Source of the DNA: Candidatus Bathyarchaeota archaeon
GTDB lineage: Archaea; Thermoproteota; Bathyarchaeia; Bathyarchaeales; Bathycorpusculaceae
NCBI GenBank assembly: GCA_003165195.1
Contig: PLSP01000105.1
Span: 1-58,233, forward strand
Direction of reading: 5' to 3'
DNA length: 58,233 nt
The notes below the pieces were generated by a model, which saw only the letters and a list, made by a program, of their open reading frames with translations, was not told the DNA's origin and made no database searches. Position numbers and translations under genes: made by a program. Position 1 is the stretch's first letter, and each line of letters opens with the position of its first letter. Shown in pieces: positions 32,813 through 57,200 of the stretch.

Positions 32813-34267
32813 CTAACGGGATACAGTGCTGATAAGTTGTTTTTGGCTGTTGAAGACTTCGACGGTTAATGGCATTTTGCCTATTGCTGCGTGTGTTGCA
32901 CATCCGAAGCATGGGTCGTAGGCGCGGAACGCCATCTCCACCTTGTTGAGGATGCCTTGGTCGACTTTTCCGCCATGGATTAAGCCTTTGGCTGCGTCGC
33001 GTATGCTCATGCAGATAGCCGGGTAATTGTTGGTTGTTGCGACGATTAGGTTGACGTCTTTGACCATTGCGTCTTTGTCGAGGGTGTAATGGTGGATAAG
33101 TGTGCCTCTTGCTGCTTCAACGATGCCAACACCTTCTCCGGGTTCACCTGGCTTGTTACGGATGTTTGTGCTGGTAATTTCTGGATCTTTAACTAACTGC
33201 ATGGTTCGTTCAGTCGCGTAAAGGAGCTCAATTAGGCGTGCCCAATGAAACGCTAATGTACTGTGAATTGGTTTGCCGCCAAGAGTGTTGTACATGACCT
33301 CGTACTCTGCCTGCGCTAATGGTGTTGCCATGCCATCTGAAGCGTTTAATCGTCCGAGAGGACCAACGCGGTAGACGCCGCTGTCTTTGCCTGGAATTTG
33401 TCCTTTCCAACCTATTGCTTTGAGGTATGGGAACTTGCTGTATGTCCATTCTTCAACGTGTTCACCAATGTGTTTGAGGTAGTCTTTTGATTCGAACTTG
33501 AGGAATTCTGTGCCCATTGGGTCGACTACGCGAACTTTGCCGTCGTAAAAGTTGACTTTGTTGTTTTCGTCAACCATACCCATATAGTAGGTAGGCATTG
33601 TGTAGGCTTGGCTTTTGATCAAATCAACGTAATTGCTGTTGCCAAGCACTATGTCATGGAAGATTTTGAGTGTGAACTGAGCGAAGTTTACGCATGAAGA
33701 AGCCATCATTTCGATTTCTTGCCTGTTAGCTTCTGAAAGGGGTTTGCTGATTCCGCCGGGTAATCCGCAGACGGGGTGAGTTGCTTTGCCGCCGATGATT
33801 TCTGTGATTTTTTGGCCGTAAGCCCGGTGTTTGATGACTTCTTTGGCTACCGGAATCCCTACTTTTTCGATAACGCCAAGGATGTTGCGTTTTTCAGGCG
33901 GTGCATCTGGTCCAACTATGAAGTCTGGGCCACCAAGGTAGTAAAAGTGCAACGTGTGGTCGTAGATGTAGTAGGCGGTGTACATGAGTTCTCGCAGTTT
34001 CTTGGCTGCTGAAGGTGGTTCAACGTTGAATGCTTGGTCAAGGGCTTTTACTGCGGCAAAGTGGTGAGCAACTGGGCAGACACCGCATATTCTTGTGGTT
34101 AGCTGCGGCATGAGCTCTGCTCGTCTGCCAATGCAGAATTTCTCGAAGCCTCTTAACTCGGGGACTTTGAGGTATGCGTTTTCTACTTCGCCTTGGTCGT
34201 TTAGGAATATGGATACGTTTCCATGTCCTTCAAGCCTTGTTATTGGATCTATAATTATTTCTTTCAT
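32813..34267 (-). CDS. [NiFe]-hydrogenase large subunit, group 3c/MvhA-like
   Basis: RICGVCPVAHH and DPCFGCATH Ni-ligand motifs; C-terminal extension for protease. Confidence 0.95.
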   Translation of the reverse strand: MKEIIIDPITRLEGHGNVSIFLNDQGEVENAYLKVPELRGFEKFCIGRRAELMPQLTTRICGVCPVAHHFAAVKALDQAFNVEPPSAAKKLRELMYTAYYIYDHTLHFYYLGGPDFIVGPDAPPEKRNILGVIEKVGIPVAKEVIKHRAYGQKITEIIGGKATHPVCGLPGGISKPLSEANRQEIEMMASSCVNFAQFTLKIFHDIVLGNSNYVDLIKSQAYTMPTYYMGMVDENNKVNFYDGKVRVVDPMGTEFLKFESKDYLKHIGEHVEEWTYSKFPYLKAIGWKGQIPGKDSGVYRVGPLGRLNASDGMATPLAQAEYEVMYNTLGGKPIHSTLAFHWARLIELLYATERTMQLVKDPEITSTNIRNKPGEPGEGVGIVEAARGTLIHHYTLDKDAMVKDVNLIVATTNNYPAICMSIRDAAKGLIHGGKVDQGILNKVEMAFRAYDPCFGCATHAAIGKMPLTVEVFNSQKQLISTVSR

Positions 34268-35253
34268 TTTTTAATCACCTTTCTTTTAAGGATTGATGCT
34301 GGTAAACCGTACATGTAGACTGTGCCAACTGGGTCTTTAACTTGGCTAAGCAAATCTTCAATTTCTTTTTCAGTATACTTTGTTTTGCCTTCAACACTGT
34401 CATAGCCCAGAATTGATGCTAATGCAGTTATCATCCCTGCGCCTTGATCTGGAACGTTGGGCGCCGGGCCACCGCAACCGGTGCAAGGCATGTCAACGTT
34501 TAAGCATTGAGCGCCACAGCCGCTTCTTGTTGCCATTCCCATACAGATTATGCCTTGCTCCATGAGGCATTTTTCTGGTTCAGGAGTTTTTTCATAGACG
34601 CGGTAGATTTTGTCGATTTTTTTGTTTTCGCGTTTGCGTGGGCATTCGTCGCATACTGCTTTGAGTGGTGCAAGGACTGAGCCTTTTGGCGGGAGGTTGC
34701 CGCTTGCAATGGCATCTACTGCCCGAGCTATTAGCTTGACTGGTGGTGGGCAGCCTGGAAGATAGTAGTCTACGTCTACTGTTTGGGCAAGGGTTTTTAC
34801 TGTGTCGTAGAACTCTGGGATTTTAAGGGTGCCTTCACTAACTTGAGTTTGAGTCTGCGGCATTGTGCCTTGCGGATTGACGTTTGACTTGTCTTTTATG
34901 TAAACTTGATCGAAAATTTCTTTTTTGTCATTTAAGTTAGCTAGTCCTGGGACGCTTCCTTGGTGGGCGCATGAGCCGAAGGCAACAAGAGTTTTAGATT
35001 TTTGCCTCAGAACTTTGGCCATGTGTTCCTGCTCTGAGTTGCGTATTGAACCGTTAAAGAAGGTTATGTCGATGTGTTTGTCAGGTAGCGCTTCAACATC
35101 TTTGTATTTTACGTCGATAGCTACTGGCCAGAAGACTATGTCGGCGATTTGGACTACGTCAAGGATTTTCTCGTTTATGTCGAGGACGGCTATTTCGCAG
35201 CCGCCGCAGCTTGCAGCCCAGTAAAAGGCTATTTTTAGCTTGTTCTTACTCAT
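34264..35253 (-). CDS. [NiFe]-hydrogenase small subunit, MvhG-like
   Basis: FYWAASCGGCEIAVLD, FGSCAHQGSVPG, YYLPGCPPP, PCTGCGGPAPN. Confidence 0.95.
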   Translation of the reverse strand: MSKNKLKIAFYWAASCGGCEIAVLDINEKILDVVQIADIVFWPVAIDVKYKDVEALPDKHIDITFFNGSIRNSEQEHMAKVLRQKSKTLVAFGSCAHQGSVPGLANLNDKKEIFDQVYIKDKSNVNPQGTMPQTQTQVSEGTLKIPEFYDTVKTLAQTVDVDYYLPGCPPPVKLIARAVDAIASGNLPPKGSVLAPLKAVCDECPRKRENKKIDKIYRVYEKTPEPEKCLMEQGIICMGMATRSGCGAQCLNVDMPCTGCGGPAPNVPDQGAGMITALASILGYDSVEGKTKYTEKEIEDLLSQVKDPVGTVYMYGLPASILKRKVIKK

Positions 35254-36146
35254 TGTTTGTTTACTCCCTCAGTTACTTGCTTTAATATTTTTGATGCGTT
35301 TACTCGGAGTTCATTGAAGGCTAATTCTTCAGGACAGAGTCCCATTGCTAACCCGAGTAGTTGTGGGTAATGGAGTATGGGAATGCCATAGGTTTCATTA
35401 AATGTTTTCTCTATGCGCAGCTCATTTGTGTCATACATAATGTGGCAGAATGGGCAGATAGTGATTAACGCTTGTGCTTCAACCATTTTGATGTGGTTTA
35501 GCTTGTCTCTTGCTAATTGCAACGCGATTTTGTCGCTGACGCCAACGCTTGGGGCACCACAGCATTCTGTTTCGTCAATGTAGTCAAGGCATGTAGCCCC
35601 AGTTGCTTCGATGAGAGTTTTGAGTGTCTGTGGGTCTTCCGGGTCATCAAAACCAATATATTGTTTAGGTCTCAGGATGTGGCAGCCGTTGTGTTCAGCG
35701 ACTTTGAGCATGGTCAACGGCTTTGTGATCGAGGCTTTGATTTTGTCAATACCGACATCTTCCTTTAGCATCTGCAACAGATGCTTTGCCTCTATTGTTC
35801 CTTTGAATTCTAACCCTACTTCTTTGAGATGAAAGTTAATTTGGTCTTTGAGAACTTTGTCTTCTTTTAGGATTTTGTTAACTTTCTTGAGCGAACCAGC
35901 GCAGCCGGGGCAAAGCGTAAGAACGTTTAAGTCCTGCTGTTCCGCTAACGCCAAGTTTTTTGCCGCCAAAATAAGCATGGTTTCATGACTAACAGGATCA
36001 AATGGTAAACCACAACAATTGAATTCTGGCATTTCAACTAGTTCAACGCCAAGTTTTGTGAGGATTTTACGGGCGGAAATTTCGTATGCTGAAACACGGT
36101 AGGGGATGGCGCATCCGAGGAAAATAAGGTACTTATTGCTGGGCAT
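35250..36146 (-). CDS. HdrB-like heterodisulfide reductase subunit
   Basis: Two CCG domains: FNCCGLPFD..CPGC and TECCGAPSVG..CPFC. Confidence 0.95.
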   Translation of the reverse strand: MPSNKYLIFLGCAIPYRVSAYEISARKILTKLGVELVEMPEFNCCGLPFDPVSHETMLILAAKNLALAEQQDLNVLTLCPGCAGSLKKVNKILKEDKVLKDQINFHLKEVGLEFKGTIEAKHLLQMLKEDVGIDKIKASITKPLTMLKVAEHNGCHILRPKQYIGFDDPEDPQTLKTLIEATGATCLDYIDETECCGAPSVGVSDKIALQLARDKLNHIKMVEAQALITICPFCHIMYDTNELRIEKTFNETYGIPILHYPQLLGLAMGLCPEELAFNELRVNASKILKQVTEGVNKQ

Positions 36147-36705
36147 TTGTTGGTTGTCCTCCAGCTTGTTTTTGGGCGTTTGAGATGAATTTTACTCCTT
36201 TTAGCGTCTTTTTGACGTTTTCTGCGTTGCCTTTTGGCAGCGGCGGGAGCCCTTGTGACTCACGTTTTTTTATTCGTAATTCAGGAATTTTGTAGGCGTA
36301 TCCTGATTCAAGCAGGCTTGCGGTTTGGTCTTTGAAAACTTGTGGGATGCAGCCGTTTTCTACCGCCAAGTTGCGGAAGACGCGTATAACGCTTGCAACT
36401 TCAACGTCTTGTGGGCAGCGGTCGGTACAAGTGAAGCAGGCTGCGCATAACCATAAGGTGTCGCTTTTTAGCACGCGGTCTTTTAAGCCAAGCTGGGCCA
36501 TATGAATCAAGGTTCTGGGGCGGTAACTGTCGCTGTATCGGGCTACTGGGCAGTCTGAGGTGCAGGTTCCACACTGGAAACATTTGAGAATTTTTTCGCT
36601 TCCGTGCATTTTAAGCAGTTGATACTTGAATTTGGGGTCAAGTTCGGAAGCTTTTATTGGCTCTTTGCTTGAGACTGTTGTTGCTGCTGGCTCAGTCACG
36701 TGCAA
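36133..36705 (-). CDS. HdrC-like heterodisulfide reductase subunit
   Basis: CFQCGTCTSDCPVARYSDSYRPRTLIHMAQLG..LWLCAACFTCTDRCPQDV. Confidence 0.95.
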   Translation of the reverse strand: MHVTEPAATTVSSKEPIKASELDPKFKYQLLKMHGSEKILKCFQCGTCTSDCPVARYSDSYRPRTLIHMAQLGLKDRVLKSDTLWLCAACFTCTDRCPQDVEVASVIRVFRNLAVENGCIPQVFKDQTASLLESGYAYKIPELRIKKRESQGLPPLPKGNAENVKKTLKGVKFISNAQKQAGGQPTNAQQ

Positions 36706-37365: not shown

Positions 37366-37950
37366 CTATTTCTGCACGCTTTCTCGGCCCAGCTCAAAAG
37401 CTTTGAGGTTTAGGCTGATGTATTTTGCTTTTAGTCTGCCCGCGATGGCTTGCTGGAAAGAGTCCTGTTTAACCGGAACCTCGGGAAGTGTGGAGAGGGC
37501 GCCAAGCAAGATTGTGTTTACAACCAGTGGGTTGCCGAGTTTCTGGGCTATGCCTGCTCCGTCGACCTTATGGACTTTGGCTTTGTCATACAGAAGTTGC
37601 ATGAGCTCTTCTAGTTTTTTGGGTTTAACTCCTGATACTGCGCCGCTTGGGGGAATATACTTCATGTTAACTACGACGTCGCCTCCGACCTTAAGCATTG
37701 GCAACGCGCGGGCTGTTTCAAGAACTTCAAAACCCACTAGGACATCGGCTTTGCCGGTTTCAATCAGAGGCGCCTCAACCTTGTCGCCGATTCTTGCGTA
37801 AGCCACAATAGAGCCTCCCCGCTGAGCCATCCCGTGAATCTCTGCCTTAGCCACGTCAAACCCATCCAGCATAGCGGCTTCACAGTAAATGTCGCTGAGC
37901 ACTACCACACCTTGGCCGCCTACGCCGCTGAAAACCGTGTCCAACTTCAT
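37366..37950 (-). CDS. iorB: Indolepyruvate:ferredoxin oxidoreductase beta subunit
   Basis: VFSGVGGQGVVVLSDIYCEAAMLDGFDVAKAEIHGMAQRGGSIVAYARIG. Confidence 0.95.
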   Translation of the reverse strand: MKLDTVFSGVGGQGVVVLSDIYCEAAMLDGFDVAKAEIHGMAQRGGSIVAYARIGDKVEAPLIETGKADVLVGFEVLETARALPMLKVGGDVVVNMKYIPPSGAVSGVKPKKLEELMQLLYDKAKVHKVDGAGIAQKLGNPLVVNTILLGALSTLPEVPVKQDSFQQAIAGRLKAKYISLNLKAFELGRESVQK

Positions 37951-40139
37951 TTTTCACGTCTCCTCACCGCTTCGAAGGGGCAGACGCTTTCACAGACGCC
38001 GCATCCATAGCAAAGCGTAGCATCTATCTCAGCAACTCCTTTTTGTTGGCTGATGGCTGGGCAACCGAAAGCTTTTACGCATACGCCGCAGCCGCTACAT
38101 TTCTCGGTGACTTCTCTGGGTTGACCCCTGTCAATAAGAAGCGGACAAGGTCTTTGCGAAATGATAACAGATGGACCATTGTAATCCATCGTTTTGCGCA
38201 CGGCTTCAGTTGCTGCTTTGATGTCAAAGGGGTCAACAATGTCCACTTTCTCTATGCCTAACGCTTTGGCTACATCTTGGATTTTTATGATTTTAGCGTC
38301 AGCGCCCATAGCGGTTTTGCCACTGCTCGGTGTCGGCTGATGCCCCGTCATAGCCACTGTGCTGTTGTCCATGACGATGACGCAGACGTTTGCCTTGTTG
38401 TACACTATGTTTAGCAGTCCAGGCATGCCTGCGTGGAAAAAAGTTGAGTCGCCGATAACCGCGAAGATTTTGTCTTTTACGCCGGCGTGAGCCATGCCGG
38501 CAGCCTGAGATATTCCAGCTCCCATACATAGGCAAGATTGAAGTGTGTTCACTGGAGGCAGAAAACCAAGAGTGTAGCAGCCGATGTCGCCGGTGACGAT
38601 TTTGTCGTTTGATTGACCCGTCAAAGTCAACGCGCTCTCTGGGCAAAGCGGGATACATTTGGGGTCACCTCCGCATGAGTCACAGACTATGGCTTTGCGG
38701 CTGGTCGGGTTCAATGTTACTGCACCGATCTTGCAGGCTTCGATGCACCAGTCACAGCCTTTACATTTTTCCGCGGCAACCAGTATTGCTCCTGTTTCTT
38801 TTGAGCGTGTTAAGGCTTTTTCTGGGCAGGCAGTGACACATGGCGCGTCAAGACAAGCTTTGCAGGTTACCGCCTTGTTGAAAACTTGACCAATTCGTAC
38901 GCTGCGAATGCGAGACTTTAGCGGGTTGAAAACGCCTTCCTTCTCAAAGGAACAAGCGTACTCGCAGACGTCGCAGCCCACGCATTTTTCTGTGTCACAT
39001 TCAATATGCTGGTTAACCATGTTTAGCGCGTAGTAGAATGCTCTGTGAGGGCACCCAGGACAAAGCGCGGGCGGTCTCGGCGGCAAGTTCAAAGGTGCAG
39101 GCGGTTCCTCAAAGCTGGTTAACTGTAAACCCGCAAGGGCTTTGCGGACACAGTCAGGGGTGAATTCGCCAATTTCCTCCAAGCCTAACTGGTTCTTTCC
39201 CAGCACTTGCAAGCCTAACCGCTGAATGTTCTCTTCAATATACGGCCTTAGCTCCTCAACCACTATCATTTTTTTAACTTTAAACGCAAATCTCTTAACA
39301 ATTTCCTGAGGAAAAGGATGAACAAACCCCAGCTTTAGCCAAGAAAACTTTTTGGTATCGAGAACTGAACGAGCATAATAGTAGCCTACCCCACTACCAA
39401 TTATTCCGATTTCGCTTCCATTATCTTCAATCAAATTAAACTTCGAATGGTTAACAAGAGTTTTTGCCTCAGCCATCTTGACCTCTAAAACTCTATGTTG
39501 CCTAATAGCGTTGGATGGCACCATAACCCATTTTGAACCTTGCTTATCAAAGTCAGCGCGCCGATTAAGATTTTGCAGTCGCCCAAGCCGAACCCGAGCC
39601 TTTCCATGAGCCACTCTTGTCGTCAACCGCAAAATAACTGGCAAATGCAGTTTTTCACTTAATTCAAATGCCTCTCTGGCCATATCCAGAGCTTCCTGGG
39701 GGTTACCAGCATCAAGCAAGGGCAACTTTGAGTGGACAGCAAAATATCTTGTATCTTGCTCGTTTTGGCTACTGTGTAGTGCTGGGTCATCACAAACAGC
39801 AATCACCATACCGCCCTCAACACCTGTATAAGCCAATGTCATGGCGGCGTCTGCAGCGACGTTTAAACCCACATGTTTCATGGATACAATGGAGCGTACA
39901 CCTGTCATTGAAGCGCCCGCTGCAACTTCAGCAGCTACAATCTCATTTATGCTCCATTCCGCGTAAATACCGCGGTCTTTAGAAACTTCAACGATGGCTG
40001 CCAAGATTTCAGTAGCTGGCGTCCCAGGATATGAAGCAGCAACTTTAACGGTGGCTTCTACTGCGCCTCGCGCAACTGCCTCATCGCCGTTAAGCAAAGC
40101 AAAACTGCCTGGCTTATCTACTGCAATCTTAGATGTCAT
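37947..40139 (-). CDS. iorA: Indolepyruvate:ferredoxin oxidoreductase alpha subunit with internal poly-[4Fe-4S] insertion
   Basis: ASYPGTPATEIL, LCPGCPHRAFYYAL, VTGDIGCYTLGFLPP, C-terminal 2x[4Fe-4S]; extra 16-Cys segment in between. Confidence 0.95.
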   Translation of the reverse strand: MTSKIAVDKPGSFALLNGDEAVARGAVEATVKVAASYPGTPATEILAAIVEVSKDRGIYAEWSINEIVAAEVAAGASMTGVRSIVSMKHVGLNVAADAAMTLAYTGVEGGMVIAVCDDPALHSSQNEQDTRYFAVHSKLPLLDAGNPQEALDMAREAFELSEKLHLPVILRLTTRVAHGKARVRLGRLQNLNRRADFDKQGSKWVMVPSNAIRQHRVLEVKMAEAKTLVNHSKFNLIEDNGSEIGIIGSGVGYYYARSVLDTKKFSWLKLGFVHPFPQEIVKRFAFKVKKMIVVEELRPYIEENIQRLGLQVLGKNQLGLEEIGEFTPDCVRKALAGLQLTSFEEPPAPLNLPPRPPALCPGCPHRAFYYALNMVNQHIECDTEKCVGCDVCEYACSFEKEGVFNPLKSRIRSVRIGQVFNKAVTCKACLDAPCVTACPEKALTRSKETGAILVAAEKCKGCDWCIEACKIGAVTLNPTSRKAIVCDSCGGDPKCIPLCPESALTLTGQSNDKIVTGDIGCYTLGFLPPVNTLQSCLCMGAGISQAAGMAHAGVKDKIFAVIGDSTFFHAGMPGLLNIVYNKANVCVIVMDNSTVAMTGHQPTPSSGKTAMGADAKIIKIQDVAKALGIEKVDIVDPFDIKAATEAVRKTMDYNGPSVIISQRPCPLLIDRGQPREVTEKCSGCGVCVKAFGCPAISQQKGVAEIDATLCYGCGVCESVCPFEAVRRREK

Positions 40140-40149
40140 AATTTTGTCC

Positions 40150-41469
40150 TTACATTTTGCCGTTTCGCAGGTCAAGGACCCGTTTCGCTTTTCCCTCAGT
40201 TCTTGGGAGTTCGCCGGGCTTAACAATTTCCACGTCAGCTGAGATGCCTGTTACTATGTGGATTTGCTTTTGGATTTCGTTTTTCAAAATGTTCAGGTAA
40301 ACGTTCGGATCTTTGGCTGCTTTATCTGATAATTCAACTTTAACCGCAAATGTGTCTAACGCTCCGGGTCTATCAACCACTATTTGGTATTGAGTGGCAA
40401 GCTCAGAGAAACACATCACGGCGTACTCTATTTGTGATGGGAACACGTTTACTCCACGGATAATTAGCATATCGTCTGATCTGCCATGTACCCGCATCAT
40501 CCTTGCGTTGGTTCTTTCGCAAGAACATTTTTCGGTTTCAACCTTGGAGATGTCCCTTGTTCTGTAACGAAGCAGGGGAAGCCCAGTTTTTGTTAAACTT
40601 GTGAATACAAGTTCGCCTTCTTCTCCATCAGGCAATACCTCGCCTGTGTCTGGATCAATTGTTTCCACGATGAAATGGTCCTCAGCAACGTGTAAGCCGT
40701 TATGCTCTGGGCATTCGATAGCGACCCCCGGACCGCACAACTCAGTTAATCCATAGATGTCAAAGGCTTCTATACCCGTGTCTTTCTGGATTCTCTCCCG
40801 AATCTTGTCTGACCAAGGCTCAGCGCCAAACATTCCAATTTTAAGCTTCAGTTCCTTCCTTGGATCAACCCCTTCCTGCGCCATAGTTTCAGCAAGATAA
40901 AGGGCGAAGCTAGGAGTACAAGCAAGGATGGTTGCACCTAAGTCTTTCATAAGTTTAATTTGCCGCTGCGTCATTCCGCCGCTTGCAGGAACTATTTTAG
41001 CTCCAACTTTTTGGGCACCGTAGTGAAAACCCAAGCCACCGGTGAACAAACCGTAGCCAAAAGCTATGTGTATGACGTCCCGCCGTCTTCCCCCAGCTGT
41101 ATAGATTGATCTTGCCATAAGTTCTTGCCAAACGTCCATATCGTTTTTGGTGTAAGCGCCGATTATCGGGTTACCTGTTGTCCCGCTGGATGCATGAAAC
41201 TCAACTATATCTTCAGGTTTAGCTGCAACCATGCCGAACGGGTAATTATCTTTTAAATCAGTTTTAACTGTGAAAGGGATTTTTCGAAGGTCATTTAGTG
41301 AACGTATGCTTTCAGGCTTAAAGCCAACGCTGTCGAACTTTTTCCTGTAAAAGACGCTATTTTCGTAACAGTACTTTACCAGTTCCTTAAGCTTCTTAAG
41401 TTGATGCCTCTTTAGCTCTTCAGGAGGCATAGTTTCGATTTTTTCATTCCAGTATTTGCCGTCTTCCAT
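40150..41469 (-). CDS. paaK: Phenylacetate-CoA ligase
   Basis: FHASSGTTGNPIIGAYTKND; DIYGLTELCGPGVAIECPEHNGLHVAEDHFIVE; RTEGKAKRV. Confidence 0.95.
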   Translation of the reverse strand: MEDGKYWNEKIETMPPEELKRHQLKKLKELVKYCYENSVFYRKKFDSVGFKPESIRSLNDLRKIPFTVKTDLKDNYPFGMVAAKPEDIVEFHASSGTTGNPIIGAYTKNDMDVWQELMARSIYTAGGRRRDVIHIAFGYGLFTGGLGFHYGAQKVGAKIVPASGGMTQRQIKLMKDLGATILACTPSFALYLAETMAQEGVDPRKELKLKIGMFGAEPWSDKIRERIQKDTGIEAFDIYGLTELCGPGVAIECPEHNGLHVAEDHFIVETIDPDTGEVLPDGEEGELVFTSLTKTGLPLLRYRTRDISKVETEKCSCERTNARMMRVHGRSDDMLIIRGVNVFPSQIEYAVMCFSELATQYQIVVDRPGALDTFAVKVELSDKAAKDPNVYLNILKNEIQKQIHIVTGISADVEIVKPGELPRTEGKAKRVLDLRNGKM

Positions 41470-41759
41470 TTCATTGCCCTCTCCTATCAAAGCCGCAAAC
41501 ATAGATCTTTTAGACGGCTGTTAGATAAAAGTTCCCCAATTTGCTGCGGTTTTTGAGCCAAAAAACCTTCATTTAAACTGGTGCAGGCTATTTTGTTTGA
41601 GGAAAATAATAATAAATTGGCCGCTATTTTTCTTAGATTAATTCTCTTCTTAGCAATAATTGCCCGATCGCTCCAACGATTTCTAGTTTGTTGATTCACA
41701 AAAATAAAATAATAGTACTATGTTTTACTTCAATGGTTGATGTAAGGAGGCTAAATTGT

Positions 41760-44561
41760 ATGGGGACAAGAAACCTTGATAAGATATTTAATCCGCAAAG
41801 CGTAGCCATCATAGGCGCAAGCGACGTTGAAGGTTCAGTTGGATTCGCACTTGTTAAAAATTTTACGCAGCGCTATGCAGGCAAAGTTTATTTTATTAAT
41901 ATTCGCAAGCCCGAGATCCAGGGCGCTAAAACGTATAAATCCATAGAGGAAGTTCCTGAACCCGTTGATTTAGCGATAATTGCTACTCCTGCCAAAGCGG
42001 TTCAACAAGTCATGGAAGAATGCGGAAAGGCGCATGTGAAAGGGGTTATCATTGTTTCTGCAGGTTTCAGAGAGACAGGCCCTGATGGAAAAGCTTTGGA
42101 AGAAGCGATTCTTGAAGTGGCGAAGAAATATGACATTCGAGTTATCGGACCGAACTGTATTGGTATAATTCAACCCGCATTAAATCTTAACGCGACTTTC
42201 TTAGATAAGATGCCCAAAGCAGGGAACATTGCTTTTCTATCCCAAAGCGGAGCTCTGGGTTCACCGATTCTTGACTGGGCAATTCAGGAAAACATCGGTT
42301 TTAGCAATTTTGTCTCTGTTGGCTCAATGGTTGATGTTGACTTTGGCGATTTAATCGATTACTTCGGTTCTGACCCTAAAACCAAGAGCATTATCATGTA
42401 TATCGAGGGCATAACTGATGCACGGAAGTTTATGAGTGCTGCAAGGCACTTTGCAAGAACTAAACCCATAATTGTTGTCAAAGCAGGTAAATTCCCTGAA
42501 AGTGCAAAAGCGGCTGCGTCACACACTGGTTCTTTAACAGGAGAAGACGACATTTACGATGCCGCTTTCAAACGGGCTGGTATAGTTAGGGTTGAAGAAA
42601 TAAACGATTTATTCAATGCAGCTGAGGTTTTGGGGACTCAACCTTTACCCAAGGGATCCAGGCTTGCCATAATAACAAATGCTGGAGGCGCTGGGGTGAT
42701 GGCTACTGACGCTTTGATTGCTCAAGGAGGAAAACTGGCTAAGTTAAGCGACAAAACAATAGCAACACTTAACGGTGTTTTGCCAGCTTTCTGGAGCAAA
42801 GGTAACCCGATCGATGTTTTAGGTGATTCTAAATCTAACTATTACAAAGTAGCGCTTGAAGCCTGCTTAGACGACGAAACAGTCGATGGGATACTGATCA
42901 TTTTTACCCATCAGGCAGGTTCTGAAGCAGTTGAAATTGCACAAGGCGTGGTTGACCTTCTTAACAGCAAGGCTTACAAAAACAAAACAATCCTCACCTC
43001 TTTTATGGGAGTTCAAGGGGTACTCCATGCAAACAAAATCTTCAACGCAAACAATATACCAACCTACTCGACGCCCGAACAAGCAATCAAAACTTACATG
43101 TACATGTACAATTACCAGCGTAACCTTGAACTACTTTATGAAACTCCTGAAGAGTTACCCGTTGATGCTTCACCGCCTAAACGACCCATTTTGGCTATTT
43201 TAAGAAGTGTCGCAGCTGAAAATCGCGAGGTTTTAACTGAAGATGAAACCAAAAAGGTACTCAAATACTATAATTTTCCAGTCATAAAAAGCAAAGTCGC
43301 TAACAACGTTGAGGAAGCGCTGCTGTTGGCTCAAGAAATGGGTTACCCCGCTGTCCTCAAGATTCTTTCTCCACAAATTGTCAACAGAAGAGCTGCAGGC
43401 GGAGTCATCTTGAACCTAACTTCTCCAGCTGAAGTCCGAGAAGCATTTGAAGTCTTAATCCAGAGAGCTACTGCTTACAATCCAAAAGCACAGATAGTCG
43501 GTGTGACAGTACAGCACATGGTCGAAAAGAAAGGTTACGAGCTAATAATCGGCGGAAAAATCGATCCAGTTTTCGGTCCAGTGATGTGGTTTGGCATGGG
43601 CGGCATTGGTATGGAGCTTTTCAGAGATTATTCTGTTGGAATTCCTCCTTTAAACATAACGCTTATAAGGCGTATGATGGAGGAAACCAAAATTTATCAA
43701 ATTTTGAAAGGTTACCGAGACAGACCTCCTGTTGATCTTAAACGGCTCGATGAAACTCTGCTGCTCTTTTCACGTCTGCTTACTGATTTTCCCCAAATTA
43801 AAGAAATCGAGATAAATCCTTTGCTGATAAATGAGAAAGAAGCTCGCATATTAGACGCAAGAATAGTTGTCAACAAAGAAGATGTTTGCAAAAAATTCGA
43901 GCCCCATGAGCACATGGTTATCAGCCCTTACCCAAAAAAGTATGAGACATTGTGGTCTCTGAAAAACGGCAAAGAAATTCTTTTGCGACCAATAAAACCA
44001 GAGGATGAGCCACTATGGGAAGAAATGTTTCAGAGTTTTTCTGAGGAGTCGATACGCTACCGATTTTTTCAAATTCTTAGAGACACTTCGCATGAAGTTC
44101 GGGTGCGCTACTGCAACATTGACTATGACAGAGAAATAGCTATAGTAGCTGAAGCTACTGAAAACGGACAGAAAAAGATTCTCGGCGTTGCCCGCGTCAG
44201 TACAGAAGCCGATGGAAAAACAGGCGAAATGGCTTTTATCGTCAGTGACTACTGGCAAGGGTTCGGCTTAGGCACCAAAATGGTTGATTACGTGCTCGAC
44301 ATAGCCAAAGACAAAGGGATTGAAAGCGTATATTCCATAATGCTTCCCGATAACTATCGGGCTTTAACTCTGACCAAGAAAATGGGTTTCAACTTAGAAT
44401 ACTCGGACGACGATGCAGTTAAAGGCACCTTGGACTTGAAAAGCGAGGAGTCAAATCTTTGTCCTGCCAAGGAACCTCAGAAAGCTAAAAAAGAAAAATC
44501 AAACATTCAAGTTGCAAAAGAAAAAACGCAAATCCAAGAGCCGACACCACTTTCAGCTTAA
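41760..44561 (+). CDS. ADP-forming acyl-CoA synthetase (alpha+beta) fused to C-terminal GNAT acetyltransferase (PatZ/Pka-like architecture)
   Basis: NPQSVAIIGASDVEGSVG, AASHTGSLTGED, ATP-grasp YPAVLKILSPQIVNRRAAGGV, GNAT EMAFIVSDYWQGFGLGTKMVDYVLDIA. Confidence 0.94.
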   Translation: MGTRNLDKIFNPQSVAIIGASDVEGSVGFALVKNFTQRYAGKVYFINIRKPEIQGAKTYKSIEEVPEPVDLAIIATPAKAVQQVMEECGKAHVKGVIIVSAGFRETGPDGKALEEAILEVAKKYDIRVIGPNCIGIIQPALNLNATFLDKMPKAGNIAFLSQSGALGSPILDWAIQENIGFSNFVSVGSMVDVDFGDLIDYFGSDPKTKSIIMYIEGITDARKFMSAARHFARTKPIIVVKAGKFPESAKAAASHTGSLTGEDDIYDAAFKRAGIVRVEEINDLFNAAEVLGTQPLPKGSRLAIITNAGGAGVMATDALIAQGGKLAKLSDKTIATLNGVLPAFWSKGNPIDVLGDSKSNYYKVALEACLDDETVDGILIIFTHQAGSEAVEIAQGVVDLLNSKAYKNKTILTSFMGVQGVLHANKIFNANNIPTYSTPEQAIKTYMYMYNYQRNLELLYETPEELPVDASPPKRPILAILRSVAAENREVLTEDETKKVLKYYNFPVIKSKVANNVEEALLLAQEMGYPAVLKILSPQIVNRRAAGGVILNLTSPAEVREAFEVLIQRATAYNPKAQIVGVTVQHMVEKKGYELIIGGKIDPVFGPVMWFGMGGIGMELFRDYSVGIPPLNITLIRRMMEETKIYQILKGYRDRPPVDLKRLDETLLLFSRLLTDFPQIKEIEINPLLINEKEARILDARIVVNKEDVCKKFEPHEHMVISPYPKKYETLWSLKNGKEILLRPIKPEDEPLWEEMFQSFSEESIRYRFFQILRDTSHEVRVRYCNIDYDREIAIVAEATENGQKKILGVARVSTEADGKTGEMAFIVSDYWQGFGLGTKMVDYVLDIAKDKGIESVYSIMLPDNYRALTLTKKMGFNLEYSDDDAVKGTLDLKSEESNLCPAKEPQKAKKEKSNIQVAKEKTQIQEPTPLSA

Positions 44562-47296: not shown

Positions 47297-47521
47297 TTGT
47301 TCATTTTCCTCAATTTTCAATGGTTACCCCATGTATCAGCTTTTCATAATAAAAGCTTTTTTGAAATGAGACAAGCGATACTCTATTTTCAACCTTCACC
47401 AGTTTGTAATAACCTTTTTTTTCGGGGTTTTCTAATCAGTTTCCAGAAAAAGACCGCCACAGTCTTTTATACTAGTGCTAATGTAATCTGCTCAGCATTG
47501 AGTATATCTCTCAATGGATTT

Positions 47522-48025
47522 ATGGAGGATCAGTTTTTGTCCCAGAAAGATAAAAGGCGCCTATTGTTGGAAAAAGTCTTCAAAGAACATAATTATCAAG
47601 AAAGTGCACTTTTAGAAATATTACATAGTGCGCAAGAAATCTATGGTTATTTAGATAAAGACTTGCTTACCGATATTGCCGAATCGCTTAATGTACCTCC
47701 TAGTCATGTTCTTGGAGTAACAACTTTCTACAGTTTCTTTAAGTTAAGAAAGCCAGGACAGCATGTCGTAACTGGTTGCTTAGGTACTGCCTGCTACGTT
47801 AAAGGCGTCGATGACATAATGACTGAAGTCGAGAAAGAATTTGACCTCAAACGTGGCGGATCTACCGCCGATGGACGGCTTTCACTTTTAATTACCCGAT
47901 GCATTGGAGCATGTGCTATGGCACCAAACATGGTTATTGACAACGAGGTTATCGGAAAAGCAACAAAAGAACAAGTGATACAAAAAATAAAAAGCGTGCT
48001 TGACGGTGAAAAGATTGAAACCTGA
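47522..48025 (+). CDS. hoxE: NuoE/HoxE-like [2Fe-2S] subunit
   Basis: VTTFYSFFKLRKPGQHVVTGCLGTACYVKG..CIGACAMAPNMVID. Confidence 0.93.
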   Translation: MEDQFLSQKDKRRLLLEKVFKEHNYQESALLEILHSAQEIYGYLDKDLLTDIAESLNVPPSHVLGVTTFYSFFKLRKPGQHVVTGCLGTACYVKGVDDIMTEVEKEFDLKRGGSTADGRLSLLITRCIGACAMAPNMVIDNEVIGKATKEQVIQKIKSVLDGEKIET

Positions 48026-49661
48026 TGACATACAAAAAATAGCCGAACGTGAAATAGAATACGAAAGAGCCCATCAATTCAGGATAAATGTTTGTTGCTC
48101 AAGCGGTCACGAAAGATTTGGAGCTCTAAAACTTTTCAAAGCTTTTGAAGATGCAGTTAAAGAATTAGGCGTTGATAAAGAGGTTAGAGTTGCCAAGACC
48201 GGATGCATAGGGACCTGCTCATTGTGTTCAGCAGTAATAATCGAGCCGGGAGATTACCTTTATCACAGCGCCACACCCGAAAATGCACGAGAAATAGTTC
48301 GAGACCACGTTGTCTTAGGTTTACCCATGGAAGAGCAATTATACAAGGATGAGGGCTTCTTTAAAAAACAGCAACGCCACGTTCTTAAAAATGCTGGCAA
48401 GATTGACCCACACAGAATTGAAGACTACATCCATGCAGGCGGATACGCTGGATTAGTAAAATGCTTAACTCAAATGACTCCGCAAGCAGTTATTAACGAA
48501 GTACTCGCAAGCGGATTACGAGGCAGAGGAGGAGCAGGTTTCACAACAGGTCAAAAATGGAACTTGGTTGCCCGCGCTCAAGGATCACCAAAATACATTG
48601 TAGCGAACTTAGATGAAGGAGATCCAGGTGTCTTTGCTAACAGATCCTTAGCTGAAGCTGATCCACATGCTATACTCGAAGGCATGATCATAGCCGCTTA
48701 CGCAGTAGGCGCTGAAAAAGGCTTCATTTACATCAGAGCCGAATACCCACTTGCAATTCAAACCCTAAAAAATGCTCTCGGCCAAGCAAGAGCTATGACA
48801 CTACTAGGGAATAATATTCTTGAAACTGGCCTTAAATTTGATGTAGAGCTTAGGTATGGTGCCGGAGCCTTCGTTGCCGGAGAAGAAACAGCCATCCTAG
48901 CATCCGTTGATGGCCAAAGAGCTATGCCAAGACCACGACCACCGTACCCAGCAAACTCTGGTTTGTGGAAGAAACCCACGCTTATCCAAAACGTCGAAAC
49001 TCTTGGAAATATACCACAAATAATGGTCAACGGTGCAGCATGGTTTACAAAAATAGGGACGCCAAAATGTCCGGGGACAAAAATATTTTCCTTGACAGGT
49101 CAAATCAACAATCCTGGTCTAATTGAAGTCCCTATGGGCATTAGTCTGAGAGAAGTTGTTTTTGAAATCGGTGGGGGCATTCCGAACAATCGAGCATTTC
49201 GATCAGTACTAGTTGGAGGCCCTTCAGGTGGTTGCCTACCCGATTTCATGCTTGACTTACCGATAGACTACGAATCGCTGACAAAAGCAGGCGCAATTAT
49301 GGGTTCCGGAGGCATCGTTGTCCTTGACGACCAATCATGTATGGTTGATACAGCCAAATTCTTCACTGATTTTTGCGTTGACGAATCATGCGGCAAATGC
49401 ACTCCCTGCAGAATAGGATTAGCTCAAATTCTAGAAATATACGATCGAATCACCACTGGCCAAGGAAAAATGAGTGACATAGCAATCCTGGAGAAATCAA
49501 GCGGTTACATAAGAGATGCAAGCCTTTGCGGTCTAGGACAAACCGCGCCTAACCCAGTTATAACTACACTGAGGTACTACAAAGAAGACTACGTCAAGCA
49601 TATTGTCGATAAAAAATGTGATGCTGGCAAGTGCTTCAAAAAGCAGCCGGAGGAAGAGTAA
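48000..49661 (+). CDS. hoxF: NuoF/HoxF-like diaphorase subunit
   Basis: GLRGRGGAGFTTGQKWN, VANLDEGDPGVFANRSLAE, ESCGKCTPCRIG, LCGLGQTAPNP. Confidence 0.95.
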   Translation: MTVKRLKPDDIQKIAEREIEYERAHQFRINVCCSSGHERFGALKLFKAFEDAVKELGVDKEVRVAKTGCIGTCSLCSAVIIEPGDYLYHSATPENAREIVRDHVVLGLPMEEQLYKDEGFFKKQQRHVLKNAGKIDPHRIEDYIHAGGYAGLVKCLTQMTPQAVINEVLASGLRGRGGAGFTTGQKWNLVARAQGSPKYIVANLDEGDPGVFANRSLAEADPHAILEGMIIAAYAVGAEKGFIYIRAEYPLAIQTLKNALGQARAMTLLGNNILETGLKFDVELRYGAGAFVAGEETAILASVDGQRAMPRPRPPYPANSGLWKKPTLIQNVETLGNIPQIMVNGAAWFTKIGTPKCPGTKIFSLTGQINNPGLIEVPMGISLREVVFEIGGGIPNNRAFRSVLVGGPSGGCLPDFMLDLPIDYESLTKAGAIMGSGGIVVLDDQSCMVDTAKFFTDFCVDESCGKCTPCRIGLAQILEIYDRITTGQGKMSDIAILEKSSGYIRDASLCGLGQTAPNPVITTLRYYKEDYVKHIVDKKCDAGKCFKKQPEEE

Positions 49662-50434
49662 ACATGGCCGTTTCTAACCCTGTTAAAAGCAAAATTGGAA
49701 AAGAGCTCTCAATCGATGATGGCGCCATTGCCACTAACGCTTTGAGAATCAAAATTGACGGAAAAGAACTTGCGGTCCCCGAGGGCACCACAATTCTGAA
49801 AGCTGCCAAAGATAACGGAATCATTATTCCTTCTTTATGTGAGGTAGAAGGCTTAACCCCCTATGGCGGCTGCAGACTTTGCCTGGTTGAAATTAGTGGT
49901 TCCCCCAAACTTTTTCCAGCATGTACAACACCAATTGGTCCAAACATGGAAATCACAACAAAATCAGACAAATTAAAAGAATACCGCAAGATGACAGTAC
50001 AAATGCTTCTCTCTGAGCGAACCCACATATGCTCTTCCTGCGTATCTAACAACCACTGTGAACTACAAGCTCTGGCGGACGAACTTGGTGTTGACCATGT
50101 CATGTTTGAGCGCCAGTGGACCAACAAAGAAGTTGACTCCACACACGAATTCTTGGTAATCGATCGAAACCGGTGCATACTGTGTACGCGGTGCATTCGT
50201 GTCTGCGACCAAATTGAAGGAGTCCATACACTCGACCTCAAAATGCGTGGCAAAAGCACCGACGTAATTATAGACCTAGACGAGAAATGGGTGAACTCAT
50301 GTTCCTGCACTTCCTGCCGTAAATGCGCTAAAGTTTGCCCTGTAGGAGCAATTTACATCGAAAATGAACCAATCGAAAAAACTAAGCGTAAAGATATTGT
50401 CGAGTTTATCGTCCAAAGGAGGAACCGCAAGTGA
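49631..50434 (+). CDS. hoxU: HoxU/NuoG-N-like Fe-S subunit
   Basis: SLCEVEGLTPYGGCRLCLVEI, HCELQ, CILCTRCIRVCDQ, CSCTSCRKCAKVCPVGAI. Confidence 0.93.
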   Translation: MLQKAAGGRVNMAVSNPVKSKIGKELSIDDGAIATNALRIKIDGKELAVPEGTTILKAAKDNGIIIPSLCEVEGLTPYGGCRLCLVEISGSPKLFPACTTPIGPNMEITTKSDKLKEYRKMTVQMLLSERTHICSSCVSNNHCELQALADELGVDHVMFERQWTNKEVDSTHEFLVIDRNRCILCTRCIRVCDQIEGVHTLDLKMRGKSTDVIIDLDEKWVNSCSCTSCRKCAKVCPVGAIYIENEPIEKTKRKDIVEFIVQRRNRK

Positions 50435-50973
50435 CTGAGGCAACAAAAGTTAGAGTTGCAACAATGTGGCTTAGCGGCTGTAGCGGCTGTCACATGTCAT
50501 TTTTGGATCAAGACGAGCGGCTAATAGATTTGGCTCAGAAAATACAGCTAGTTTACAGCCCAATCGCTGACATCAAAAAGTTTCCTGAAAACGTTGACGT
50601 AACACTAGTTGAAGGCGCATTAGCCAACGACCACCAAGTTGAGGACGTTAAAGCTGCCCGCGCAAACAGCAAAATCCTAATTTCACTTGGCGACTGCGCC
50701 GTAACAGGCAACGTCACTGCACTGCGTAATGCGTGGCCTCACAGCGACAAAGCAATCATAGAGAAAGCTTACTTAGACAAGACGCTTTTAAACCCACAGA
50801 AACCCACTGACGTTCCCAAGCTACTTGTTAAGGCTCGTCCGCTCCACGAAGAAGTAAAAGTTGACTTTTTTATTCCAGGGTGCCCACCGTCAGCTGACCT
50901 CATTAACTACGTGTTAACTGAGCTGTTGGCTGGCAGAACACCGAAGATGGAGGGAAGATCCAGATATGGATAA
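50431..50973 (+). CDS. hoxY: HoxY-like [NiFe]-hydrogenase small subunit
   Basis: MWLSGCSGCHMSFLDQDERLIDLAQ; ISLGDCAVTGNVTALRN; FFIPGCPPSADLI. Confidence 0.94.
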   Translation: MTEATKVRVATMWLSGCSGCHMSFLDQDERLIDLAQKIQLVYSPIADIKKFPENVDVTLVEGALANDHQVEDVKAARANSKILISLGDCAVTGNVTALRNAWPHSDKAIIEKAYLDKTLLNPQKPTDVPKLLVKARPLHEEVKVDFFIPGCPPSADLINYVLTELLAGRTPKMEGRSRYG

Positions 50974-52405
50974 AGAAAACGATAAAAAAATCATAATTAG
51001 CCCAGTAACAAGAATTGAAGGGCACGCTCGAGTAACCATTTTCCTAGACAACGAAGACAACGTAAAAGACGCAAGATTCCAAGTTACTGATTTTCGAGGC
51101 TTTGAAAAATTCACTGAAGGCAGACCATACTATGAAATGCCAGCTATAACTTCACGTTCCTGCGGCATTTGCCCAGTAAGCCACCTGCTTGCTTCAGCCA
51201 AAGCATGCGATGCAATCGTCGGAGTTACCCCGCCAAAAACCGCCATAAACCTACGACGGCTTATGCATATGGGGCAGCTTATCCAGTCTCACGCGTTAAA
51301 CTTCTACCACCTATCATCGCCAGATCTAATCTTAGGCATGGACTCTGACCCCGCAGTTAGAAACATTTTCGGAATAATAGCCAAGGACCCTGATCTTGCA
51401 CGCCAAGGCATTAGACTGAGAAAGTTCGGCCAAGAAATCATCGCCAACGTCGCCGGCAAACGCATTCACTCTGCTGAGTGGATTATGCCAGGTGGAGCAA
51501 AGTGGCCCCTGACCAAAGAAAGAGCCGACTACCTCAAAGAAGGCTTACCTGAAGCAGAAGAAAGCGCAGTTAACACCCTCAACCTCTTCAAAGGCATGCT
51601 AGGGCAATTCGGTGACGAGGTGGAAAACTTCGGCAATTTCCCAAGCTACTACATGGGCTTAGTCACTGCTGACGGGGCACTGGAACTCTACGACGGCACT
51701 CTCACCATAGTTGACAACAGCGGAACTGCGGTTGGACAATGTGTTGATCCTACCACATACCAAGAGTTCATAGGTGAAGCAGTTGAACCTTGGAGCTACA
51801 TGAAGTTCCCATACTTCAAAGCCGTAGGGTACCCACAGGGCGCCTACCGCGTCGGTCCATTGGCAAGACTCAACGTTGCCTCCCACTGCGACACACCGCT
51901 TGCAGACCAAGAACTAAAGGAGTTTAAGAAACTTGGCAAAAACGGCATTGTCCAGAGCACGTTCCACTATCACTACGCAAGACTGATTGAATTACTATTC
52001 TGCGTTGAAAGCGCCAAAAAACTTCTAAGCGACCCAGAAATCCTCTCCGAACACGTCACCTCCAAAGCCATGGTAAACAACTATGAAGGCGTCGGGTTCG
52101 CTGAAGCACCAAGAGGCACATTGATTCACCACTACAAAGTTGACAAAGAAGGCTTAATCACCTCAAACAACATGATCATCGCCACAGAACACAACAACAT
52201 CGCCTACAACATGGCAGTCACACAAGTCGCCAAAAAATACGTCAAAAACAAAACCCTCCAAGAAGGCATGCTAAACCGCGTTGAAGCTGTAATTCGAGCT
52301 TTTGACCCATGCCTCAGCTGTGCAACACACGCAGTCGGCCAAATGCCCCTCGACATAAAACTAGTTGACGCAGAAGGCAGACTGTTAGACCGCAAAATAA
52401 GATAA
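50966..52405 (+). CDS. hoxH: HoxH-like [NiFe]-hydrogenase large subunit
   Basis: [36 protein letters not shown]-terminal extension. Confidence 0.95.
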
Positions 52406-52494: not shown

Positions 52495-52857
52495 ATGAAA
52501 GGCATAGACCACTTCGCAGAGGCACTAGGCATTCAACTTCTCGACGCCAAAGACGGCTACGCAAAAGTCTCCATGAAAGTGCAGAAAACCCACACCAACG
52601 CATTGGGCTTCACACATGGCGGCGCCATCTTCTCGCTGGCAGACTACGCCTTCGCACAGGCATGCAACTACGGCGACAACGTCGCCGTCGCAGTGCAAGT
52701 CAGCATAAACTACCTAAAACCCAGCGCCGAAGGCGACACCTTAATAGCCGAGGCAACACGCGTCAGCGACGGCAAAACCGCGGGCCTATACCACGTAACC
52801 GTTAAAAACGGCGAAAAAACAGTGGCGTTCTTCTCAGGGTTAGCCTTCAAAAAATAG
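52495..52857 (+). CDS. PaaI-type hotdog thioesterase
   Basis: NALGFTHGGAIFSLADYAFAQACNYG. Confidence 0.93.
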   Translation: MKGIDHFAEALGIQLLDAKDGYAKVSMKVQKTHTNALGFTHGGAIFSLADYAFAQACNYGDNVAVAVQVSINYLKPSAEGDTLIAEATRVSDGKTAGLYHVTVKNGEKTVAFFSGLAFKK

Positions 52858-54275: not shown

Positions 54276-57200
54276 TCACTTGAAGGGCAAACGTATGATG
54301 AAGGTTGTTCCTTTACCTTCTTGGCTTTTGAAGATTACGGTGCCGCCTAACGCTTCGGTCATCCGCTTAATTACAGGTAAGCCGAATCCTTGACCTTTTG
54401 CTTTTGTCGTGAACATTGGAGTGAACAATTTGCTTTTTATAGCTTCAGGAATACCAACGCCATTATCCTTCACAGATATGACGACACCTTTTTCTTCTTT
54501 GTAGGCATGTATGGTTAGTTTGCCACCTTTCGGCATAGCTTGAACAGCATTATTAACCAAATTGTACATAATACGATTTATGAAAGTGGAGTCAGCTACA
54601 ACTTTTCTAGCCTCAGCTTCAACTTTAACGGTTACCTTAACGTTATCTGGCAAACCGTTCTTTGCCAATAACTCGTCAATTATGAGTTTTAGGTCGGTTT
54701 CTTCTACGTTTGGTTTAAGAGGTCTGGCAAAGTCTTGCAGGTCCGCCACAATCTTGTTAATGTAATCTATGTTCTTCTCGATACCTTCCAAACTTTCTTT
54801 TGCACTACTTTTTTCTTCGCCTTCAGGCATGGCTTTTAGCTCTTCCTTTAACAAATATACATCACCCGCAATAGCCTGCAGTGGATTACGAATATCATGA
54901 CCAACCATACCCGCAGTTGTTCCTATAGCGGCTAAACGCTCAGAATCCTTAAGCTGCTTGGTTCGATCTTCAACCAAATTTTCTAAGTGTTTACTGTATT
55001 CTTCAAGCTCAGCTTCCATTTTCTTTCGATTGGAAATATCCTCAAACATTGCGACAAAATACTCTTTTCTTGGACTATAAACAGAAACATGCAGCCACAA
55101 AGCTAAAGGCTTGAAAAATACTTCAAAATTCTCGCTTTTTCCAGTTAGAGCAACTCTACCATAGATTTCAAATAGTTCAGGATTAGCTTTTTCAGTTCCA
55201 GGTATCGCCTCGGTAACTTTTTTCCCGATAACTAGGTCTCTTTTTAGCCCTGTTATTTTCTCAAAAGCATCATTAATCTGAAGATAAACAAAGTCAACTG
55301 GTTTAACTTTGTCACTAAATATCATTCGGCAATAAGCAAAGCCATCCACCATATTTGCAAACAAAGAACGAAATTCTTCCTCACTCTCCCTCAGAGCCTG
55401 CTCCGCTTTCTTGCTTTCGGTAACGTCGCGGATGATAGCCATTATTGCTTTGGGTTCATGAGCTTGATTATATATTACTGTGGATTTAGCAAACCTGTAA
55501 ACCCAACTGCCATCTTTGTGGCGGACACGATATTCACTCGTAGCTGACCCTTGCGTTAGCAACTCGCCCATTTTAGCTCTAACTTCGGGTATATCATCTG
55601 GGTGAACATTTGCAAAACCATCTGAGTCAATCTCTTCTCCGACTTCATAACCTAAACTTGTGAAGTAAGCTTTATTTCTGAAAATGTGCCCTCCCTTCAG
55701 ATCAGTCAACAATATTACATCATCTGCAGTTTCGACCAATGCACGATATTTTTCTTCCGATTCTACTAGTTGTTCTTCAGCTTTCTTGCGCTCAGTTATG
55801 TCTGTAAAAGATACGACTGCACCATCAATCTTCTTCGTTTCAGTTAAGTACGGTCGAACCTGCATTTCACATAAACGATCTTCAGCGCATTCAACTTCTT
55901 GGGTGATAGCATTTAATTTGGTGGTAACATTCGAGATTGTCTTTCCTAAATCTACGGCATGAACTCCCTGATTGAAATCGGTGATTGACCTTCCAACATC
56001 GGATGGCGAAATCTTCAAAAGTTTTTGAGCTGAAACAGTAAAACGCCTAATCTTCAGCTCGTTATCGACAATAACCACTGGAAGGTCAACGTTTGTTTGC
56101 AGGTTAGTTAAGTCATCATTTAGGCGACCAAGAACCTGATTGCGATTCTTAAGCTCATCGTTAAGAGTCTGCAACTCCTCATTGCCCGACTGCAACTCCT
56201 CTTTTGCCGTTTCCAACTCCTCGTTTGTACTCTGAAGCTCCTCATTGCTCGACTGAACCTCCTCCATAGACGACCGCAACTCCTCATTAGTTGCCTGCTG
56301 CCCCTCAACAAGACTCTGTAAAGACCGCTTAGTTGCCTCCAAATCCTCCCTAAGCTCACGAATCTGACGATCCTTAAGACTCTCCACCCCACCAGGCAAA
56401 ACAACAGATTCAACTTCCTTAGCCAAAGAAGTACGATCAGATGTTTCTTCGGTAAATAATACAAGTTGGAAAGGTTCTTCGTACTGCGTTGTTTCTAATG
56501 GTCTTATCTCGATGTTAATTATTTTTTGGTTGCCTTTTTGTTTGAAGAACACCGTTTCCTTGATGGCGGTTTTTTCTTTTTTTGCCCTATACAAAGCAGT
56601 CTGAACTTGTGACCTCAACTCTTTCCGAATAATTCTGGTTATGTTAAAACTCGCAACTCCCGATTCAGGAGAAAGAAAAGGGGCAACATCTCCACGAAAC
56701 ACAATTATGTCCAAGTTATTGTTAACTAACAAAGTCGCTGGACCATACTCTGATGTTATAAGATGATCAACTTTCTCGCCCAAAACCGTGAGCAAGTCTG
56801 TTTTTCCAAGCGGTTCAGCAGTTTTCTTCGCTACATTAGGAGCAAAGACTTCATTTATCAATACGTGTGGTTGGGCTTGCTTTTTCCTGTAAATTAGGCA
56901 TCCTGGAGTAATTGGTTCAAACAGATACTGGAACTTGCCAACGCTTTCAGATTCACCCAAAACTAGAAAACCATTTTCTTTTAGGCCATAATGGAAAATG
57001 TGTAATACTCTTTCATGAAGGTAAGAATCAAAATAGATGAGTACGTTTCGGCACATAATGAGGTCTATGTTGGAGAAAGGCGGATCAGTTGTTATGTCCT
57101 GTTTTGCAAATATGCACATGTCACGGATTGATTTTGTTATAATGTAATGGCCGCTGGAGAAAGTGAAGAATCGTTTTAGCCTGTTTTCGGAGACGTTGTC

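Follow-up and report, generated by a model that had tools for sequence, protein, structure and literature searches.

The locus considered here lies in a 58,233-nucleotide stretch of DNA from a Candidatus Bathyarchaeota archaeon (the whole of it being referred to below as the window), and it raises the question of what a run of ferredoxin-type cysteine motifs is doing inside the TPP-binding half of an indolepyruvate oxidoreductase alpha subunit (IorA). Bathyarchaeia, most of them uncultured, abound in anoxic sediments. The original prediction held that a ferredoxin module is embedded in IorA at 38605-39012, and these coordinates prove to be correct within 1 nt. Every motif that it quoted is found, on translation, in one open frame on the minus strand (ORF 37947-40226), and the module matches four-cluster subunits at E = 3e-26, which bears out the embedding itself.

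The reading frame and the proximal cluster

The longest ORF begins at a TTG at 40226, with the probable start being the ATG at 40139. This corresponds to the MTSKI-type start position used by most relatives, and residues are therefore numbered from it. The protein passes the curated cut-off of the TIGR03336 IorA model (692 bits, against 650.9), being matched as two stretches that flank the insert. It shares with that family the POR_N and TPP halves, the proximal cysteines, the C-terminal 2x[4Fe-4S] domain (all eight of its cysteines being invariant across the insert-bearing set) and an adjoining iorB, for which the top NCBIfam matches are IorB models, every one of them under its cut-off. What sets it apart is a four-cluster module of about 132 residues that separates the second proximal-cluster ligand from the third, together with a core that belongs to a clade of its own. 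The features are collected in Table 1.

Table 1. Features of the ior locus in the window, with the basis for each assignment.
Feature	Position	Strand	Basis
iorB, beta subunit, POR gamma-type domain, adjoins iorA	37366..37950	-	PF01558, E = 3e-36
iorA, predicted arylpyruvate (indolepyruvate):ferredoxin oxidoreductase alpha subunit, with embedded ferredoxin module	37947..40139	-	TIGR03336
C-terminal 2x[4Fe-4S] ferredoxin domain, Cys681-Cys720, like canonical IorA	37980..38099	-	PF12838, E = 2e-11
Cys665 (SQRPC), fourth proximal-cluster ligand	38145..38147	-	conservation and alignment to 5b46_B
Cys521 (GDIGC), third proximal-cluster ligand, just past the module	38577..38579	-	conservation and alignment to 5b46_B
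Embedded module, residues 377-512, 16 cluster cysteines Cys386-Cys499 (nt 38643-38984)	38604..39011	-	phmmer and Cys conservation
CPGC, Cys360 and Cys363, first two proximal [4Fe-4S] ligands	39051..39062	-	aligned to CPGC of Sulfolobus OFOR beta, 5b46_B
POR_N domain, pyrimidine-binding half of TPP site	39573..40067	-	PF01855, E = 5e-17
paaK, AMP-forming phenylacetate-CoA ligase family	40150..41502	-	TIGR02155, E = 1e-168, 561 bits (cut-off 646)
paaI-like hotdog thioesterase	52495..52857	+	TIGR02286, 118.7 bits (cut-off 118.9)

It had been assumed that canonical IorA carries only the C-terminal 2x[4Fe-4S] domain. In fact the four ligands of a proximal [4Fe-4S] cluster are also present, Cys360, Cys363, Cys521 and Cys665 being aligned with the cysteines of the sole cluster of the two-subunit OFOR of Sulfolobus tokodaii (5b46), an enzyme that differs in having no ferredoxin domain whatsoever (PMC5020499). 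All four are invariant in 39 insert-bearing and in 16 archaeal and 8 bacterial insert-free IorA rows. The insertion falls after the second of them and before the third, in the loop that follows the CPGC helix within the TPP-binding half. Because the ordinary proximal ligands are thus also present, split by the insertion, one chain may hold up to seven clusters (1 proximal, 4 in the module and 2 at the C-terminus) in place of the six first proposed, where the proximal cluster had been missed. AlphaFold predictions of the full IorA and of the module, made with a shallow alignment, gave no confident model (pLDDT 31 and 47). By our own estimate the insertion point, past a helix of about 15 residues, may lie some 20 A from the proximal cluster.

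Identity and origin of the embedded module

The extra block covers about 132 residues (381-512) between CPGCPHR...NQ and KIVTGDIGCY, so that the spacing from CPGC to GDIGC is 157 residues, compared to 27-33 in the insert-free IorAs of archaea and bacteria. The expectation that its 16 cysteines would suffice for four clusters holds up well, all of them being 100% conserved in 39 full-length insert-bearing copies, which go down to 64-65% identity with the window protein over their length. A search of the module against solved structures using phmmer identified 6x6u_B/6x1o_B (3e-26), 9mqx_E (2.5e-25) and 8c0z_C (2.8e-24). We take 6x6u/6x1o to be the WOR/ASOR enzyme of P. furiosus, and 8c0z the AOR of Aromatoleum. 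Given the invariant cysteines in 39 relatives and the match at E = 3e-26 to four-cluster subunits, the module is not a product of chance. The spacing had originally been likened to HycB/DmsB-type subunits; HycB-type matches are far weaker than those to AOR-type Fe-S subunits, and the E-values put WorS/AorA nearest.

Judged by these matches, the module is a WorS/AorA-type protein, the Fe-S subunit found in tungsten aldehyde oxidoreductases, without the C-terminal helix. It has the 16-Cys spacing of that double-ferredoxin family (E ~1e-24 to 3e-26), whose WorS members hold four [4Fe-4S] clusters (PMC13328260). Normally, however, this is a separate subunit of about 165 residues encoded beside the tungsten subunit, whereas here it is nested in IorA. 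The source genome itself has three stand-alone homologues of the module (48-55% identical), and across the order 20 of the 25 stand-alone homologues examined directly adjoin a gene of one cluster (c5), whose representative is AFOR_N plus AFOR_C, the domain pair of a tungsten AOR large subunit. In most stand-alone subunits the ferredoxin fold is followed by a conserved, helix-like C-terminal tail (LAQKARIxAVKKLFQE), but the insert has no such tail and runs straight back into IorA. Filament formation of Aromatoleum AorA needs a C-terminal helix (PMC10413684), and the embedded module, lacking it, is therefore probably not filament-forming. The insert retains Lys408, Arg410 and Ile411 (the NPxKSRI region), which are common to AOR Fe-S subunits, and has drifted at several positions conserved in the stand-alone subunits.

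It is worth adding that the embedded module also matches the N-terminal 140 or so positions of PadI, the phenylglyoxylate dehydrogenase beta subunit (NF045766), which is likewise part of a 2-oxoacid oxidoreductase. In PadI the module is N-terminal, by the model coordinates, in a separate subunit of 443 residues, and not within a TPP half. IorA scores 75 bits against NF045766, well below its cut-off of 700. By profile, PadI is the nearest precedent for such a module being combined with an OFOR.

Two observations concern cysteines outside the sixteen. Cys381 (38997-38999) is an invariant seventeenth cysteine directly before the cluster motifs, absent both from stand-alone AOR subunits and from insert-free IorAs. 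Cys536 and Cys538 are common to the insert-bearing proteins and most bacterial IorAs. A further observation concerns a second IorA copy in one genome (L043:10064-11995, G017:C54), which has lost about 76 residues in frame (425-500, in TTG-start numbering). Both middle cysteine motifs of its module are gone and it has no PaaK or Liv neighbours. Its reading frame is open, from which it follows that not every copy needs four clusters.

In the tree of modules a single branch, with support of 100/97, parts all of the inserts from all of the stand-alone subunits, with the rooting on distant PDB chains being unreliable owing to long branches. In trees of the IorA core, from which the insert was cut out, the insert-bearing proteins again form one clade (100/100). 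With few bacterial sequences in the set, this clade groups with IorAs of Chloroflexota and Peptoclostridium, not with those of Thermoproteota, and an AU test on the same set rejects joining it to the archaeal IorAs (p = 0.008). These trees are most simply read as a single capture, by a bacterial-type IorA, of a Bathyarchaeial AOR subunit. In the core tree G173, a carrier belonging to family f1, is placed within the carriers of family f6, which suggests a later transfer.

Distribution and gene neighbourhood

Of 260 Bathyarchaeia genomes, 42 have the insert, two of these being single-contig assemblies (G103 and G151), and mis-assembly was rejected for this reason. The carriers comprise 29 of the 32 genomes in the genus of the window, so that the insert is far from absent in close relatives, together with 10 from other genera of the same family and 3 from family f6 (genus g16). 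An insert-free IorA is present in addition in at least three of the carriers (G125, G128, G168). The search took in Bathyarchaeia, other Thermoproteota, Chloroflexota and plasmid records. Among 301 Thermoproteota genomes drawn, the IorA matches listed outside Bathyarchaeia all end at the insertion point, and among 251 Chloroflexota genomes the insert was not found in the 30 that are IorA-positive; full-length matches would stand at the top of both match lists. One Dehalococcoidia match (L046) was considered as a further carrier and rejected, there being no IorA with an insert there. Plasmid records gave no place covering 80% of the query, and the viral contigs scanned for IorA yielded two partial loci.

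The gene order in most relatives is LivG-LivF-PaaK-IorA-IorB-LivK-LivH-LivM-PaaI, with a divergent ACT-pair gene. In the window paaI is displaced and no homologues of the Liv genes in the operon turned up; PaaK and IorB still adjoin iorA, the paaK stop being 10 nt upstream of the iorA start, as paaK adjoins insert-bearing iorA in most carriers. IorAB with PaaK, with PaaK and ACT, or with Liv genes is also present in bacteria with insert-free IorA. Since parts of the neighbourhood are shared in this way, there is nothing unusual in the operon, and what is new is the embedded module. No AOR gene was found in the insert-IorA operon in the neighbourhoods examined, and there is no electron partner whose gene is part of the operon in all carriers.

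The original prediction also drew attention to two hydrogenases within about 15 kb. An Hdr/Vhu flank and a Hox/Vhu-type cluster are indeed in the window, but they are not conserved neighbours of iorA. The Hox/Vhu-type cluster is near iorA in a few genomes of the genus, most carriers having instead PaaK, the Liv transporter, PaaI and the ACT protein, and functional coupling to the neighbouring hydrogenases was rejected because the proximity is not conserved among carriers. The flank, at 32813-36705, is a run of HdrC, HdrB, VhuG and VhuA without an adjoining HdrA, after a gap of about 660 bases downstream of iorB, and is local to the window; HdrBC and VhuGA are also together near AOR genes in L092 and L095. 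At 47297-52405 there is one run of HoxE/HoxF/HoxU-like and VhuG/VhuA-like genes, resembling an NAD(P)-linked [NiFe] hydrogenase, and portions of it also adjoin the ior operon in L040, L042 and L122. Divergent from paaK, at 41688-44561, is an acyl-CoA synthetase of the ADP-forming type that has a GNAT acetyltransferase domain fused at its C-terminus, and a similar synthetase/Hox arrangement neighbours the ior operon in L040, in L042 and, partly, in L122. At 54276-58187 there is a fusion of CheB, CheR, PAS and histidine kinase domains, of 1303 residues.

Possible functions of the module

As far as sequence comparison goes, the picture is of a fully conserved module of single origin, in a protein whose TPP, proximal-cluster and C-terminal ferredoxin parts are intact. 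The explanation that we favour, with a probability of about 0.5 for the whole, is that the product of 37947-40139 is the alpha subunit of an arylpyruvate (indolepyruvate-type) oxidoreductase, predicted to form a distinct Bathyarchaeial subfamily, in which an AOR four-[4Fe-4S] subunit nested in the catalytic chain provides a second electron port. Electrons exchanged with TPP through the proximal cluster would have two routes, the C-terminal 2x[4Fe-4S] domain or the embedded chain, the latter serving as a built-in port for a partner besides or instead of free ferredoxin. This electron role is suggested by the conserved cluster ligands and by the role of AorA in AOR. Methanogens are known to activate arylacetates and carboxylate them to arylpyruvates. 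PaaK is AMP-forming, and PaaK with IorAB could therefore do likewise; together with the Liv-type importer, the ACT-domain protein and PaaI, the system would interconvert arylacetyl-CoA and arylpyruvate, most likely reversibly, and perhaps mainly in the reductive direction, for the salvage of aryl acids or amino acids. More tentatively, having two built-in ports on one TPP site might allow the enzyme to serve partners of different potential, or to join an AOR in a larger assembly.

The distribution of chorismate synthase has a bearing on direction. Within family f1 but outside the genus it is encoded by 9 of 10 carriers, compared with 9 of the 32 genomes whose only IorA is insert-free (Fisher p = 8e-4, with no correction for kinship, and possibly a reflection of shared ancestry). 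This association is more in keeping with an anabolic or salvage role than with obligate peptide fermentation, though it is no proof of direction. Because carriers mostly have chorismate synthase, the idea that insert-bearing IorA is chiefly a peptide-fermentation enzyme of auxotrophs is disfavoured; obligate scavenging in aromatic auxotrophs was considered and is unsupported, chorismate synthase being present in 39 of 42 carriers. The same contrast tells against an ordinary catabolic arylpyruvate:ferredoxin oxidoreductase for the fermentation of aromatic amino acids, in which the module would be an exit to hydrogenase or Hdr-type partners and the acyl-CoA would yield ATP through an acyl-CoA synthetase. 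Such an enzyme is a possibility, if a doubtful one. The synthetase, HdrBC with VhuGA and the HoxEFU/VhuGA-type hydrogenase do all lie within 15 kb in the window, three further loci have the similar arrangement noted above, in one of them partly, and oxidation of 2-oxo acids by Ior has been proposed for termite-gut Bathyarchaeia (PMC7886697). However, most carriers with long flanks have no hydrogenase neighbourhood, and the constant neighbour, PaaK, consumes ATP.

The descent of the module from AOR Fe-S subunits, with Lys408, Arg410 and Ile411 retained, could also mean that it serves to dock WorL, the catalytic subunit of a tungsten aldehyde oxidoreductase, onto IorAB; released aldehydes (from non-oxidative decarboxylation) or acids (for reduction) would then be handled in one complex with their electrons pooled. 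An AFOR_C protein is encoded in 61 of the 61 relatives searched, and OFORs do release aldehydes through a CoA-independent side reaction (PMC5020499). Set against this are the lack of an AOR gene in the operon, the missing C-terminal helix and the drift at otherwise conserved positions, and we consider such docking unlikely. Less likely again is a structural or vestigial module that holds clusters for stability or oligomerisation with no electronic contact with TPP: the L043 paralogue tolerates the loss of residues 425-500, but the invariance of 16 cluster cysteines in 39 full-length copies, at identities as low as 64-65%, is difficult to explain in this way.

We found no account of an IorA with an embedded module, or of an IorA subfamily so defined, in literature on extra domains of IorA, Bathyarchaeial Ior, AOR subunits and phenylglyoxylate dehydrogenase, drawn largely from papers available without subscription. 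The work on termite-gut Bathyarchaeia treats Ior as an oxidative enzyme only (PMC7886697). The insert-bearing IorA is a clear case in which the whole redox-wire module of one enzyme family is nested in the catalytic domain of another with all of its cluster ligands kept. If the module is wired to TPP, it would offer a natural test of what sets the choice of electron acceptor in 2-oxoacid oxidoreductases, and of what sets their direction, oxidative decarboxylation versus reductive carboxylation, and it would suggest how Bathyarchaeia handle aromatic acids.
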